Source: Thermococcus piezophilus (GTDB taxonomy: Archaea; Methanobacteriota_B; Thermococci; Thermococcales; Thermococcaceae). Taken from it: a DNA stretch of 64,000 bases. The notes beneath the pieces were generated by a model. It did no database searches. It had not been told where the DNA came from and saw only the letters and a list, made by a program, of their open reading frames with translations. Numbering within the stretch: the stretch's first letter is position 1; every line of letters begins with the position of its first letter. This document shows positions 28,266 through 33,347 of the stretch, one piece after another. Made by a program: the position numbers and the translations under genes. The stretch covers positions 620,001 through 684,000 of the forward strand of contig NZ_CP015520.1 in the NCBI RefSeq assembly GCF_001647085.1, written 5' to 3'.

Positions 28266-28322
28266 AGGTCAGTCCGTCACTCCCTCATCACAGCTCGGAC
28301 AAGGCTGAAATCATCATCCCAG
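28266..28322 (-). ncRNA. Box C/D sRNA, first of a tandem pair
   Basis: On the minus strand: C box ATGATGA (28317-28311), C' box GTGATGA (28291-28285), D box CTGA (28272-28269) and a degenerate D' (CTGT, about 28293-28290). The guide before D reads GGAGTGACGGA, complementary to UCCGUCACUCC; CCGUCACUCC resembles the decoding-site region of archaeal 16S rRNA, with the fifth pair at about E. coli U1406. The target is recalled from memory and needs checking against this organism's rRNA. The D' guide region is TTTCAGCCTTGTCCGAG. Confidence 0.8.
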
Positions 28323-28353: not shown

Positions 28354-28412
28354 TGCTCAGCGATCACCTTTCCTTCCTCACAACTCGGTTCGCCCATCAA
28401 TCATCATCGCAG
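28354..28412 (-). ncRNA. Box C/D sRNA, second of a tandem pair
   Basis: On the minus strand: C box ATGATGA (28407-28401), C'-like TGTGAGGA (28382-28375) and D box CTGA (28360-28357). D' is degenerate (GAGTTG region). The segment TTGATGGGCGAAC after box C is complementary to GUUCGCCCAUCAA, close to the 23S rRNA A-loop sequence as I recall it, allowing a G-U pair. The guide before D is GGAAAGGTGATCG, target not assigned. Only about 31 bases separate it from the first sRNA, so both may come from one precursor. Confidence 0.72.
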
Positions 28413-28468
28413 CATAACATACGTCCGGAGGGTTTTAAAGATACCCCCTCACCGAAAGCCTTATACGC

Positions 28469-28508
28469 ATTAATGAAATTTAATTAAATGTCATTAAATA
28501 TCATTAAA
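28469..28508. promoter_or_regulatory. Four 10-base repeats, probable RHH operator of the sat operon
   Basis: Four consecutive 10-base units, ATTAATGAAA, TTTAATTAAA, TGTCATTAAA and TATCATTAAA, put an ATTAA core on one face of the helix every turn. They span the expected start of transcription, after TTATAC at 28461-28466, and end 17 bases before the ATG of a ribbon-helix-helix gene. RHH dimers typically bind such arrays cooperatively, so autoregulation is likely. Confidence 0.6.
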
Positions 28509-28525
28509 GACTGGAGGTGTATCGG

Positions 28526-28753
28526 ATGGCTGACGAAAAGAAGTACACAACCGTTTCCATACCAAAACCCCTCTACGACAAGATTAAGAAGAGGATAGAG
28601 GGCACTGGATTCACTTCCGTCTCAGACTACGTTACCTACGTCCTCCGCGAGGTTCTTGCGAGCCTCGAAGAGGAGGAGAAAGAGGAAGTCTTCACCGAAG
28701 AGGAAGAGGAAAAGGTCAAGGAGCGCCTCAGGGCCCTTGGCTACCTCGACTGA
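28526..28753 (+). CDS. Ribbon-helix-helix DNA-binding protein, first gene of the sulfate operon
   Basis: A 75-residue protein. Residues 6-45 (TTVSIPKPLYDKIKKRIEGT, then SVSDYVTYVLRE) match the ribbon-helix-helix fold (CopG/MetJ type); the C-terminal part is a Glu-rich coiled coil. ATG 28526 is chosen because GGAGGTG at 28513-28519 is ideally spaced; the frame also opens at 28517. It begins the operon leading to Sat, DHH, phosphodiesterase and APS kinase and sits next to a repeat array that looks like its own operator. An autorepressor sensing a sulfur metabolite is my inference. Confidence 0.82.
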   Translation: MADEKKYTTVSIPKPLYDKIKKRIEGTGFTSVSDYVTYVLREVLASLEEEEKEEVFTEEEEEKVKERLRALGYLD

Positions 28754-28778: not shown

Positions 28779-29918
28779 ATGGTCTCGAAGCCCCATGGAG
28801 GCAAGTTAGTTAGAAGGCTCGTCGCAGAGAGAACCCGCGAGAGAATTCTGAGCGAGCAGAAGGAGTATCCCTCCGTTAAGATCGACCACGGAAGGGCGAT
28901 AGACCTCGAGAACATCGCCCATGGTGTCTATTCTCCCCTGAAAGGCTTTCTCACAAGTGATGATTTCCAAAGTGTACTCAACCACATGCGTCTGAGCGAT
29001 GATACCCCCTGGACTATTCCGATAGTGATCGACATTGTGGAAAAGACCTTTGATGTGGGAGACGCGGTTCTGCTCTACTACGAGGATATACCCATTGCAA
29101 GGATGCACGTTGAGGAGATATATACCTATGATAAGAAAGAGTTCGCCCAGAAAGTCTTCAAAACCACTGATCCAAATCATCCGGGCGTTGCCAAGGTTTA
29201 TTCCCTAGGTAAATACCTAGTCGGCGGCGAGATTGAGCTCCTCAATGAAGTTCCAAATCCCTTCGCCAAATACACCCTCAGACCCGTCGAGACGAGGATC
29301 CTCTTCAAGGAGCGCGGCTGGAGGACCATCGTTGCCTTCCAGACGAGGAACGCCCCCCACGTCGGGCACGAGTACGTCCAGAAGGCGGCGCTAACCTTTG
29401 TAGACGGCATCTTCATCAACCCCGTCCTCGGTAAAAAGAAGAAGGGCGATTATAAAGATGATGTCATAATCAAGGCCTACGAGACGCTATTTGAGCACTA
29501 CTACCCAAAGAACGCCGCGACCTTAGCGACCGTCCGCTATGAAATGAGGTATGCTGGCCCGAGGGAAGCCATCCACCACGCCATCATGAGGAAGAACTTT
29601 GGAGCAACGCACTTCATCGTGGGAAGAGACCACGCTGGAGTCAGCGACTACTACGGGCCCTACGAGGCCTGGGATATGTTCGAGAACTTCCCTGACCTCG
29701 GCATAACACCGATGTTCATCAGAGAGGCCTTCTACTGCAGGAAGTGCGGCGGCATGGTCAACGCCAAGATATGCCCTCATCCAAAGGAGTTCCACGTCCA
29801 CATAAGCGGCACCAAGCTCAGGAAGATGATAATGGCCGGCGAGCAGCCGCCGGAATACATGATGAGGCCCGAGGTTTACAAAGTCATAAGGAGCTTTGAG
29901 AAGCCCTTCGTGGAGTGA
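28779..29918 (+). CDS. sat: Sulfate adenylyltransferase (ATP sulfurylase)
   Basis: Makes adenosine 5'-phosphosulfate (APS) from ATP and sulfate in the cytosol. 379 residues, the normal length of the monofunctional enzyme. The nucleotide-binding motif is AFQTRNAPHVGHEYVQK (about residues 187-203), followed by FIVGRDHAGVSDYYGPYEA. A zinc-binding Cys/His cluster is visible in CRKCGGMVNAKICPH near the C-terminus. GAGGTGGTAAC precedes the ATG. It lies 25 bases after the RHH gene and 29 bases before the DHH gene in one operon. Confidence 0.95.
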   Translation: MVSKPHGGKLVRRLVAERTRERILSEQKEYPSVKIDHGRAIDLENIAHGVYSPLKGFLTSDDFQSVLNHMRLSDDTPWTIPIVIDIVEKTFDVGDAVLLYYEDIPIARMHVEEIYTYDKKEFAQKVFKTTDPNHPGVAKVYSLGKYLVGGEIELLNEVPNPFAKYTLRPVETRILFKERGWRTIVAFQTRNAPHVGHEYVQKAALTFVDGIFINPVLGKKKKGDYKDDVIIKAYETLFEHYYPKNAATLATVRYEMRYAGPREAIHHAIMRKNFGATHFIVGRDHAGVSDYYGPYEAWDMFENFPDLGITPMFIREAFYCRKCGGMVNAKICPHPKEFHVHISGTKLRKMIMAGEQPPEYMMRPEVYKVIRSFEKPFVE

Positions 29919-29947: not shown

Positions 29948-30883
29948 GTGCATCTAATAGTTCATCACTGGGACACGGACGGAATAACTTCAGCGGCTTT
30001 GCTCGTCAGAGCACTCTGTTTAGAAGACTTCACAAATATGACAGCACAAATAGGCGAGTTCCGCTTCGATGAGAGGATCCGGAAAGCAATAGAAGGGGCT
30101 GAAAAGCTCTACGTGATGGACTTCAACGTTCCGGGTGAGGTGGAGAATGTAGATATCGAAACACTCTTCATAGACCATCACACGCAGCCGAGGATAAGGA
30201 ACCCAAAGGTCAAACAGATTAACCCCTCACTCGACGGTGAATATTATCCATCGGCCTCGCTGGTAGTTTCCGAGTACTTCGGCCTCTGGAACGCCTGGAG
30301 CGCCCTTGGCGTAGTCGGCGACATCGGGGAGAGGGCTTTTGAGGTTCCTCGCGTTAATGAGCTCCTCGATAGGGAAGGCCTATCAAGGGAGGAGGCTTTA
30401 AGGCTCGTCGAGCTGATGGACTCGAACTACATAGCCGTGGACAGAGAAGCCGTTGAAGATGCCGTTGCAGTTCTGCTCAGTCAAGAAACTAAAGAGCTCC
30501 TTGAATATGAGCCGTGGGTGAAGCGAGCAGATGAGATAAGACGCATAATAGAGGAAGCCCTCTCAAGCGTGGCTGAGAGGAATGGCTTCGCGATAGTCGA
30601 GTTCGAGAGTCCGTTCAACATAATCTCCAAGGTTGCAAGGAGGCTCGTCTGGGAAATGGGCTTTAGAGGTGCCGTCGTTGTCAATAAAAACTTCCACGGA
30701 AAGGCTCAGCTCTACTTCAGGGTCTCGAAGGAGGAAGCCGAAAGGATAAACATGGCAGAGGTCATTGAGAGGCTCCGCATCCTCGGAACAAACACAGGCG
30801 GCAAGAGGGAAGTTTTGGGATGCGTCTGTAATAGGAAGAAGGTTGAGGAGGCATTCAAGATTGTTGAGAAATACCTGGGGTGA
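29948..30883 (+). CDS. DHH-family phosphoesterase, candidate pAp phosphatase
   Basis: A 311-residue DHH/DHHA1 protein. The N-terminal domain has HHWDTDGITSAALL (metal ligands DxD) and LFIDHHTQPR (the DHH motif, about residues 75-84). The C-terminal DHHA1 domain ends in TNTGGKREVLGCVC, where the usual GGH is GGK, so substrate recognition may differ. The start is GTG 29948, preceded by GGGGTGAGTTAG. NrnA-type members hydrolyse short oligoribonucleotides and pAp, the by-product of PAPS use; its place between sat and APS kinase makes pAp recycling the favoured role. That assignment is contextual. Confidence 0.82.
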   Translation: MHLIVHHWDTDGITSAALLVRALCLEDFTNMTAQIGEFRFDERIRKAIEGAEKLYVMDFNVPGEVENVDIETLFIDHHTQPRIRNPKVKQINPSLDGEYYPSASLVVSEYFGLWNAWSALGVVGDIGERAFEVPRVNELLDREGLSREEALRLVELMDSNYIAVDREAVEDAVAVLLSQETKELLEYEPWVKRADEIRRIIEEALSSVAERNGFAIVEFESPFNIISKVARRLVWEMGFRGAVVVNKNFHGKAQLYFRVSKEEAERINMAEVIERLRILGTNTGGKREVLGCVCNRKKVEEAFKIVEKYLG

Positions 30884-30887
30884 TGTT

Positions 30888-32309
30888 ATGAGCTTTGATG
30901 AGAAGGTTAAGAGAGGGTTGGAGAACGTTAAGAAGGTCTTTGTCATTGGCCTCGACTCCGCTCCACCCGAGCTTTTGTTCAGTCGCTTTTTGGATGACCA
31001 GCCAAACATAAAGTGGCTCGTAGAGCGCTCCATTTATGGTCCAATGCAGAGCACCATTCCAGCCATTACCATTCCAGCCTGGATGGTGATGGCGACTGGA
31101 AAAACGCCAGGAGAGCTGGGTCTGTACGGCTTCAGGCACAGGAAGAAGGGCACCTACAATGACATCTGGATTGCTCACAGCCTTATGGTAAAAGAGAAGG
31201 CTGTGTGGCATCACATAGCCGAGAAGGGCAAGAAGTCGGTTCTCGTTGGAATTCCACCGAGCTACCCGCCAAAGCCGATAAACGGCTGGCTCGTGTCGTG
31301 TTTCATAACCCCCGACGCGAGCGTAGACTACACCTATCCAAAGGAGCTCAAGGGCGAGATTGAGAGTCTCGTCGGTGAATACATCTTCGACGTTGTCTTC
31401 AGAAAGGAGAACCGCGACGAAGTCAAAGAGCAACTCTGGGAGATGACAGAGAAGAGGTTCGAAGTGATAAGGTACCTAATCGAGGAGAAGAATTGGGACT
31501 ACTTCCAGTTCGTGGAGATAGGCCTCGACAGGGTTCACCATGCATTCTGGAAGTACTTCGACGAGAATCACCACCTTTATCCTGGCGACGACAACCCCTA
31601 CCGGAACGTCATCCCCGATTACTATAAGCTCCTAGATAAAGAGATAGGCAAGACCCTGAAGCTCCTCGACCTCGACGAGACGGCTGTGCTCATAGTTTCA
31701 GACCACGGAATAAAGGCCATGAAGGGAGCTTTCGCCATAAACCAGTGGCTCATCGAGGAGGGCCTTCTCAAGATCAAGAACCCTGAGATACTGAAAGAAG
31801 GCAGACAGGTTAGATTCAACGAGCTCAAGGTTGACTGGAGCAAAACTACGGCCTGGGCCTGGGGCGGCTACTACTCGAGGATCTTTCTCAACGTGAAGGG
31901 AAGGGAGCCCCAGGGAATAATCCCGCCCGAAAAGTTCCACCAGGTTAGAGACGATGTCGCGGAGCTTATAAAGAACATACGCGGCCCGAACGGCGAGAAG
32001 TGGAACACCAAGGTGTTCTATCCAGAGGACATCTATCCCACCGCCAAGGGAGACAAGCCGGACATGATGGTTTATCTGGATGACTTGAACTGGAGAGCAG
32101 CGGGAACCCTTGGATACAAGACACCATACCTCCTCGAGAACGACTTGGGCCCAGACGATGCAGTTCACGCAGAATACGGCGTGTTCTCGCTGTATCTCCC
32201 AGGCATGGACGAGTCGAAACAGACCCAGCTCACAATCTACGACTTTGCCCCAACCGTGCTCAGGCTCTTCGGGATGATAAAGTTGCTCAACGGAAAGAGC
32301 ATCGTTTGA
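30888..32309 (+). CDS. Alkaline phosphatase-superfamily phosphodiesterase/nucleotide pyrophosphatase
   Basis: A 473-residue metal-dependent hydrolase. FVIGLDSAPPELLF gives the first metal-binding Asp (about residues 18-31), TIPAITIPAWMVMATG holds the Thr nucleophile region, and LIVSDHGIKAMKG is the typical later metal site. A His near ENDLGPDDAVHAEYG could be the last ligand. ATG 30888 follows GGGGTGATGTT. It is embedded in the PAPS operon, so the substrate could be a nucleotide, a sulfate ester or a phosphodiester on a glycan; the sequence does not decide. Confidence 0.87.
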   Translation: MSFDEKVKRGLENVKKVFVIGLDSAPPELLFSRFLDDQPNIKWLVERSIYGPMQSTIPAITIPAWMVMATGKTPGELGLYGFRHRKKGTYNDIWIAHSLMVKEKAVWHHIAEKGKKSVLVGIPPSYPPKPINGWLVSCFITPDASVDYTYPKELKGEIESLVGEYIFDVVFRKENRDEVKEQLWEMTEKRFEVIRYLIEEKNWDYFQFVEIGLDRVHHAFWKYFDENHHLYPGDDNPYRNVIPDYYKLLDKEIGKTLKLLDLDETAVLIVSDHGIKAMKGAFAINQWLIEEGLLKIKNPEILKEGRQVRFNELKVDWSKTTAWAWGGYYSRIFLNVKGREPQGIIPPEKFHQVRDDVAELIKNIRGPNGEKWNTKVFYPEDIYPTAKGDKPDMMVYLDDLNWRAAGTLGYKTPYLLENDLGPDDAVHAEYGVFSLYLPGMDESKQTQLTIYDFAPTVLRLFGMIKLLNGKSIV

Positions 32310-32321
32310 CGGGTGGTGAGC

Positions 32322-32864
32322 ATGGAGCAGAGAAACCTTGAGAAGGGCTTTACGGTGTGGCTTACAGGGCCGAGCGGTGCCGGAAAGACTACTCTAGCTG
32401 TCAAACTTGCCAAGAAACTCAGAGAAATGGGCTACCGCGTGGAGATACTCGACGGCGATACGATAAGGAAGACGCTCTATCCTGAGCTCGGCTTTTCTAA
32501 GGAAGCGAGGGAAATGCATAACAGAATCGTCATCCATATGGCCAAACTCCTCAGCAAGAACGGGGTTATAGCCATAGTCTCGCTGATTTCCCCCTACAGG
32601 GCAGTCAGGGAGTACGCTAGGAAAGAAATAGGGGACTTCATCGAGGTCTACGTCTACGCCCCCCTCGAAGTGAGGATTCAGCGCGACCCGAAGGGGCTCT
32701 ACAAGAAGGCCATGCGCGGAGAGATAAAGGGCCTCACCGGCTACGATGGCGTTTACGAAGAGCCAGAAAATCCGGAGGTTAAAGTGGACAGCTCGAAGAT
32801 GACGCCTGAGGAAGAAGCTGAACTCGTCATTCAGAAAGCCAAGGAGCTTGGGTACCTACCGTAA
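32322..32864 (+). CDS. cysC: Adenylyl-sulfate kinase
   Basis: Phosphorylates APS to PAPS. 180 residues, normal length. Walker A motif GPSGAGKTTLA (about residues 16-26), EILDGDTIRKTLYPELGFS, and the APS-kinase lid KGLYKKAMRGEIKGLTGYDG are all present. ATG 32322 follows GGGTGGTGAGC. It completes PAPS synthesis with Sat, encoded in the same operon. Confidence 0.95.
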   Translation: MEQRNLEKGFTVWLTGPSGAGKTTLAVKLAKKLREMGYRVEILDGDTIRKTLYPELGFSKEAREMHNRIVIHMAKLLSKNGVIAIVSLISPYRAVREYARKEIGDFIEVYVYAPLEVRIQRDPKGLYKKAMRGEIKGLTGYDGVYEEPENPEVKVDSSKMTPEEEAELVIQKAKELGYLP

Positions 32865-32885: not shown

Positions 32886-33347
32886 ATGGAAGAAGCATTG
32901 GTTTTTATCAGTCTTGGCTTCTTCGTGGGGTTCCTCGTCGGTCTTACCGGTGTGGGTGGAGGAGCCCTAATGACCCCCTCCCTTATCTTCCTCGGCGTCG
33001 AGCCACTGATAGCGGTCGGAACCGATCTGCTCTACGCCACTATAACGAGGGTTTTTGGGGTGTTCTTCCACCGCAGGAAGGGTAGAATACGCTATGACCT
33101 CGCCCTCAGGCTCTTTGCAGGCAGCCTGCCGGCGATAGTCCTCGGTGGACTGATCCTAAGGGAAATAAACAGGGAGGTACTCAACGACTACCTGACCCTC
33201 CTCCTCGGGCTCATTCTGGTGCTCAGTGCAGCCCTTGGCCTCCTGAAGGGGGAGTTCCATGTCCCAATAAAACCGCGGATGGCCTACGTGTACCTCCTCG
33301 GCTTCGAGCCAGATGATGAGCTTACTATCTTCATTATTTCTTTTTAG
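32886..33347 (+). pseudogene. TauE/SafE-family permease, C-terminally truncated
   Basis: An anion exporter or permease of the TauE/SafE (DUF81) type, often found with sulfur metabolism genes. It starts MEEALVFISLGFFVGFLVGL, with GLTGVGGGALMTPSLIFLG, GTDLLYATITRVFG and four visible membrane segments. Homology ends at about residue 138 (MAYVYLLGF, near 33302), where EPDDELTIFIISF and a stop follow; the family is usually about 250 residues. The break coincides with the start of an AT-rich island, so the gene was probably cut by recombination. A shortened but functional half-size protein is a less likely reading. Confidence 0.78.

Follow-up and report, generated by a model that had tools for sequence, protein, structure and literature searches.

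Introduction

MetJ, the methionine repressor of Enterobacteria, is a ribbon-helix-helix (RHH) protein that controls sulfur metabolism via tandem operator boxes of 8 bp and uses SAM as corepressor. Similar modes of lining up dimers along DNA are known from Arc, in which neighboring dimers are placed about one helical turn apart, and from ParR-type partition proteins, RHH dimers of which occupy arrays of direct repeats of approximately 10–11 bp, while the site of NikR is a widely spaced palindrome. In Thermococcales sulfur metabolism is served by the transcription factor SurR, a winged-helix redox sensor with the recognition site GTTnnnAAC.

The 64-kb stretch of the Thermococcus piezophilus genome analyzed here (hereafter the window) contains a sulfate activation operon, the first gene of which codes for a predicted RHH protein of 75 amino acids and is preceded by an array of four 10-bp units. 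NikR is the nearest sequence neighbor of the DNA-binding part of this protein; however, the C-terminal ACT-like nickel-binding domain of NikR is replaced here by a short tail helix, a direct 10-bp array stands in place of the spaced palindrome, and the target genes are different. Repressors of the CopG/Arc type are alike in small size, RHH pattern, position of their gene at the head of its own operon and location of the site over the promoter, whereas the present system belongs to a chromosomal metabolic operon, uses two to six strict 10-bp units, and its protein possesses an extra conserved tail helix (F...LRALGYLD) and has no Pfam match at threshold. If compared to MetJ, units of 10 bp at sulfate activation genes take the place of 8-bp boxes (spacing of 8 does not score), and no match between MetJ and the RHH protein was revealed by Pfam, NCBIfam, and PDB searches. 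ParR-type proteins participate in plasmid partition with far longer arrays and no metabolic operon, and SurR is unlike the protein and the array in both fold and motif.

As for the operon itself, in the sections of the T. onnurineus proteomic study dealing with it, sat operon TON_1704-1707 is classed as sulfate assimilation and the homologue of DHH phosphoesterase is named PAP phosphatase, with no regulator named alongside (PMC4463584). The open-access literature searched yielded no description of this system, nor of any transcriptional regulator of sulfate activation in Archaea.

Results and Discussion

Promoter of the Sulfate Activation Operon and Its Putative Operator Array

The initial annotation of this DNA, made from the sequence alone, described an RHH gene leading a sulfate operon, and profile matches bore out both the operon and the first position of this gene, the order being RHH-sat-dhh-pde-cysC-tauE (Table 1). 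The truncated TauE/SafE permease gene, coding for 153 aa, borders on a glycan-type gene cluster of opposite orientation, the insertion of which may have cut it. Immediately upstream of the RHH promoter, the minus strand carries two neighboring C/D-box sRNA genes (28267-28321 and 28355-28411), matching Rfam sR60 and sR1 with 78.2 and 54.4 bits, both above the gathering score.

Table 1. Positions of the elements discussed (window coordinates, except for the last line).
Feature	Position	Strand	Basis or remark
BRE-like CGAAAG (28453-28458) and TATA-like CCTTATAC (28459-28466)	28453..28466	+	Read from sequence
Operator unit 1, TTAATGAAAT	28470..28479	+	Imperfect; found only in four-unit arrays
Operator unit 2, TTAATTAAAT	28480..28489	+	Sequence reading, Tandem Repeats Finder, promoter alignment
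Operator unit 3, GTCATTAAAT	28490..28499	+	Transcription probably starts at its first G, judged by TATA distance
Operator unit 4, ATCATTAAAG	28500..28509	+	Sequence reading, Tandem Repeats Finder, promoter alignment
Shine-Dalgarno GGAGGTG	28513..28519	+	Read from sequence
Predicted RHH gene, 75 aa, proposed repressor	28526..28753	+	ORF, profile matches, AlphaFold2
sat, ATP sulfurylase	28779..29918	+	NF003166, E=1e-162; PF01747
dhh, DHH-family phosphoesterase	29948..30883	+	PF01368
pde, type I phosphodiesterase/nucleotide pyrophosphatase	30888..32309	+	PF01663, E=4.6e-46
cysC, APS kinase	32313..32864	+	TIGR00455, E=1.2e-68
tauE, TauE/SafE permease, C-terminally truncated	32886..33347	+	PF01925, profile positions 2-113 of 237
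Enzymes with the tail motif	L137 (cysC after RHH); L264; L285:242-1912; L286:163-1467

Four ATTAA repeats of 10 bases had been marked at 28469-28508. The array as such stands, while its position has to be shifted to 28470-28509: ATTAA is exact and in register, at 10-bp spacing, at 28483, 28493, and 28503; its copy at 28469 falls out of register (14 bp off), and the in-register unit 1 has ATGAA instead. Tandem Repeats Finder reports period 10 and 3.9 copies over 28470-28508, and the same segment may also be read as an imperfect palindrome with 15-nt arms, 93% complementary. The supposed overlap of the array with the transcription start agrees with TATA geometry, from which transcription is expected to start near 28490, within the array; in T. 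onnurineus TATA is located at −30 to −20 (PMC5316973).

As promoters of this kind are AT-rich, a chance or compositional repeat was weighed as the source of the array. When the 64-kb window was dinucleotide-shuffled 100 times, the pattern never matched, and shuffled promoters (n = 3000) never exceeded 19/25, the score of the real site being 25/25. Together with the spacing controls, the base-specific conservation above the level of the TATA box and the absence of the array at the same locus in relatives with another putative DNA-contacting strand, all given below, these shuffles rule out a compositional origin, which retains practically no probability.

The Product of the First Gene

The 75-aa protein is predicted to consist of the strand KYTTVSIP, helices 14-24 and 32-53, and the tail helix 58-71 with the end LRALGYLD, and has no separate ligand-binding domain. 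Pfam RHH_1 matches it at E=0.005 (17.2 bits, below the cut-off of 20.5) and reaches E=0.00026 with the best family member; the NCBIfam model of NikR, PRK00630, gives sub-threshold E=0.0027, and NikR from PDB (2bj1) matches the family profile at E=0.009. AlphaFold2 prediction (40 family members, mean pLDDT 82) places the helices at 14-24, 32-53, and 58-71 and leaves KYTTVSIP extended without a sheet, as pairing of strands between two molecules is beyond the reach of a monomer model; the pattern of helices after this extended segment fits RHH. Foldseek with the same model listed NikR 3od2 (rmsd 1.1 over 40 residues), ParD-type RHH proteins, and ParB of pCXC100, all of them at E>1, and nothing at E<1. 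From the sub-threshold profile matches and the fitting helix pattern, the protein is predicted to be a member of the RHH (MetJ/Arc/CopG) superfamily, so that the earlier statement on the class of the first gene product is kept as a prediction. Invariant in 40 diverse members are T8, S11, and P13 of the strand and F56, K65, L68, L71, G72, and Y73 of the tail.

Conservation Within Thermococcales

Among 94 Thermococcales genomes, matches to the RHH protein were found in 60 and to sat in 62, the gap between the two genes being 16–37 nt in nearly all loci with both readable (the value of 234 for L051 is due to a frame cut at a stop). Incomplete copies of sat where the genome gave no RHH match, together with one disrupted RHH copy (G069:C1:864784-865368, G021:C1:713414-713500, G039:C5:169845-170043), suggest that the whole operon was repeatedly gained and lost within the order.

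Conservation of the repeats, the failure of which had been named as a reason to abandon the idea of an operator, is complete where the protein keeps its strand: all 49 Thermococcales loci with KYTTVSIP carry the array, scoring at least 20/25, between TATA and the start codon of their own RHH gene. Information content was estimated for the 38 array-aligned promoters that remained after those sharing 70% or more identity in their upstream flanks had been dropped. Over its 28 bp, the core contains on average 1.60 bits per base, compared to 0.05 in the upstream flank and 0.06 in the stretch from TATA to the array, and exceeds even the top TATA column (1.09 bits); the columns of the BRE/TATA region are conserved at equal distance across these promoters. 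The TATA box precedes the core by approximately 22 bp, and the distance from the core to ATG is mostly 17 nt. With up to three mismatches allowed, 47 of the 94 genomes have its 25-base pattern, and its place is almost invariably the RHH promoter; the exceptions are G083 and G084, considered below, and a trace where a contig of G082 ends. One two-unit match in G026 (C1:281711), situated at the end of a coding region, was treated as chance.

Distribution in Other Archaea

Scanning of the species-genome collection revealed 310 relatives. The best 80 of the 310 are all archaeal records, their labels including Thermoplasmatota, Geoglobus, Altiarchaeales, Diapherotrites, Theionarchaea, Asgard, Hermodarchaeota, Bathyarchaeota, Nitrososphaeria, and others, although most of them are MAGs, the taxon labels of which may err. 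Most directly precede sat or cysC. For 56 dereplicated promoters outside Thermococcales, the mean best three-unit match amounts to 21.2/27 at spacing 10, compared with 16.5–18.0/27 at spacings 6–9 and 11–15 and at most 16.4 in shuffles, and in some of these arrays there are five or six units, strictly in register at 10 bp. Restriction of the protein and the array to Thermococcales is thereby ruled out. The initial annotation proposed an undescribed autorepressor of this order; the autorepressor with its array over the start is retained as the proposed reading, while its confinement is not, the protein and the array being found also in Thermoplasmatota, Archaeoglobi, Altiarchaeales, Asgard, and further archaea.

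Covariation of the Array With the Strand of the RHH Protein

Pairing of this protein with this array is deduced from sequences, which leaves room for another, unlinked regulator of sulfur metabolism as the owner of the operator, the RHH protein being then a bystander. The distribution of the array within the family bears on this directly. In Thermococcales, 12 loci with other strands (ELVEIKIP-like, KFVTIEIP, NYVTISIP) also precede sat, and all of them score at most 15/25, which is the shuffle level. In the class of Geoglobus, 17 of 17 KYTTVSIP loci reach at least 20/27 at spacing 10, whereas 19 loci with other strands remain at or below 18/27, not above wrong-spacing controls. When 162 loci are pooled, 107 combine the canonical strand with the array, 24 canonical ones score 17–19/27 in the three-unit test, several of them being two-unit arrays, and none of the 31 with non-canonical strands has the array; the strand consensus accompanying it is [TS][TS][VI]SIP. 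No alternative 10-bp array was detected at the RHH variants (ELVEIKIP and others) either by eye or by unit score. Relatives with changed strands (for instance, EVKIP; L050-L060, L245-L263) occupy the same locus before sat, dhh, or pde without the 10-bp array.

The array also stays with the RHH gene where dhh or pde comes next, as in several operons of the class of Geoglobus that begin with these genes, and hence follows the RHH gene rather than sat. Tracking of the RHH strand across lineages is not expected for the operator of an unlinked factor, which thus appears improbable. Independent strand changes number four on the sat tree and two on the tree of the RHH body; a sign test over them is not significant because they are too few, and formal phylogenetic significance of the covariation is therefore not claimed.

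Second Arrays at Sulfate Uptake Genes

Two Thermococcales genomes, G083 and G084, possess upstream of the sat operon a separate tauE gene, the promoter of which has a second array, of about four units. Between this array and tauE lies an ORF of approximately 33–36 codons (L097:4027-4125 in G084, L096:3128-3235 in G083), in which a partly conserved CxGLKxR motif is seen by eye, and which codes perhaps for a sulfur-carrier-like protein. A MAG labelled Methanocaldococcaceae has a second array between RHH and sat. In three related Thermoplasmatota genomes (L208, L215, L217) the only other array found is placed directly 5′ of the ATG of a solute-binding protein, assigned in L208 to the sulfate ABC transporter family (TIGR00971, E=5.8e-43), its counterparts in L215 and L217 being homologues by reading; a gene for a CysT/W-type permease comes next. 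Arrays of the transporter genes retain ATTA steps at 10 bp with different intervening bases. Occurrence of second arrays at separate tauE and sulfate ABC transporter genes argues for regulation in trans and for a small regulon in some lineages.

The same genes bear on whether the repeats might work in the RNA leader, as an RNA element or by translational control, which is conceivable insofar as units 3 and 4 would be transcribed from a start near 28490. A TATA-like element precedes the transporter genes by approximately 25–30 bp from ATG, with the array ending at ATG; this spacing implies a leaderless transcript, so that the array, located upstream of ATG and after the TATA-like element, is probably outside the transcript and would act on DNA, not RNA. 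At the operon itself, folding of the leader is at shuffle level (z=0.11), with no stable fold, and Rfam has no match over the array, which leaves the RNA-based explanation very improbable.

The C-Terminal Tail

The tail of the RHH proteins approximates F[ST]xEDEExIKxRLRALGYLD, and its shared form, xDEExIKxRLxALGYxD, recurs at the ends of enzymes: APS kinase and a phosphodiesterase-like protein of one Theionarchaea genome, in which cysC follows RHH, as well as a Bathyarchaeota phosphodiesterase and a Thermoplasmata sulfatase. Since the motif is common to the RHH protein and to enzymes, it may, speculatively, represent a portable docking motif with a possible protein-based input. A further extension, according to which an Archaea-wide sulfate regulator would sense through docking, with the repressor and the enzymes competing for one partner that reports the pathway state instead of a small ligand, is tentative and on balance unlikely.

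Proposed Mode of Regulation

The reading that we favor, and regard as quite probable, is that several RHH dimers line up over the start site and thereby repress their own gene, sulfate activation, and, in some lineages, sulfate uptake. Each 10-bp unit, centered on TTAA, would accept one dimer, the two-stranded KYTTVSIP sheet of which would read the major groove, and adjacent dimers, one helical turn apart on one face of DNA, would bind together. Two to six dimers would cover the start site over 30–40 bp and block either assembly of the pre-initiation complex or opening of the start site. Repression would then extend to the RHH gene itself, to sat and cysC with the genes of the accessory phosphoesterases, and in certain lineages, acting in trans, to tauE and the sulfate ABC transporter. 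As the signal that would cause or relieve binding, PAPS, APS, pAp, sulfate, sulfide, and a protein partner are all candidates; the response to sulfate or PAPS put forward in the initial annotation draws no support from the sequence and is one candidate among these.

The direction of regulation is not fixed by sequence, and the protein might instead be an activator or an architectural component on the array. Archaeal activators usually bind 5′ of BRE, whereas the array lies 3′ of TATA and overlaps the presumable start, where a bound protein should hinder RNA polymerase. Position downstream of TATA thus favors repression, and activating or architectural roles seem improbable to us.

With repression as the preferred reading, the finding amounts to a candidate regulatory protein with a sharply defined operator in several archaeal groups and second targets in sulfate transport. 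The candidate can be tested in genetically tractable Thermococcales. Canonical and changed strands constitute a natural set of protein-DNA covariation for the study of DNA reading by small RHH proteins, and the operator gives a means of predicting sulfate uptake genes in uncultured archaea.
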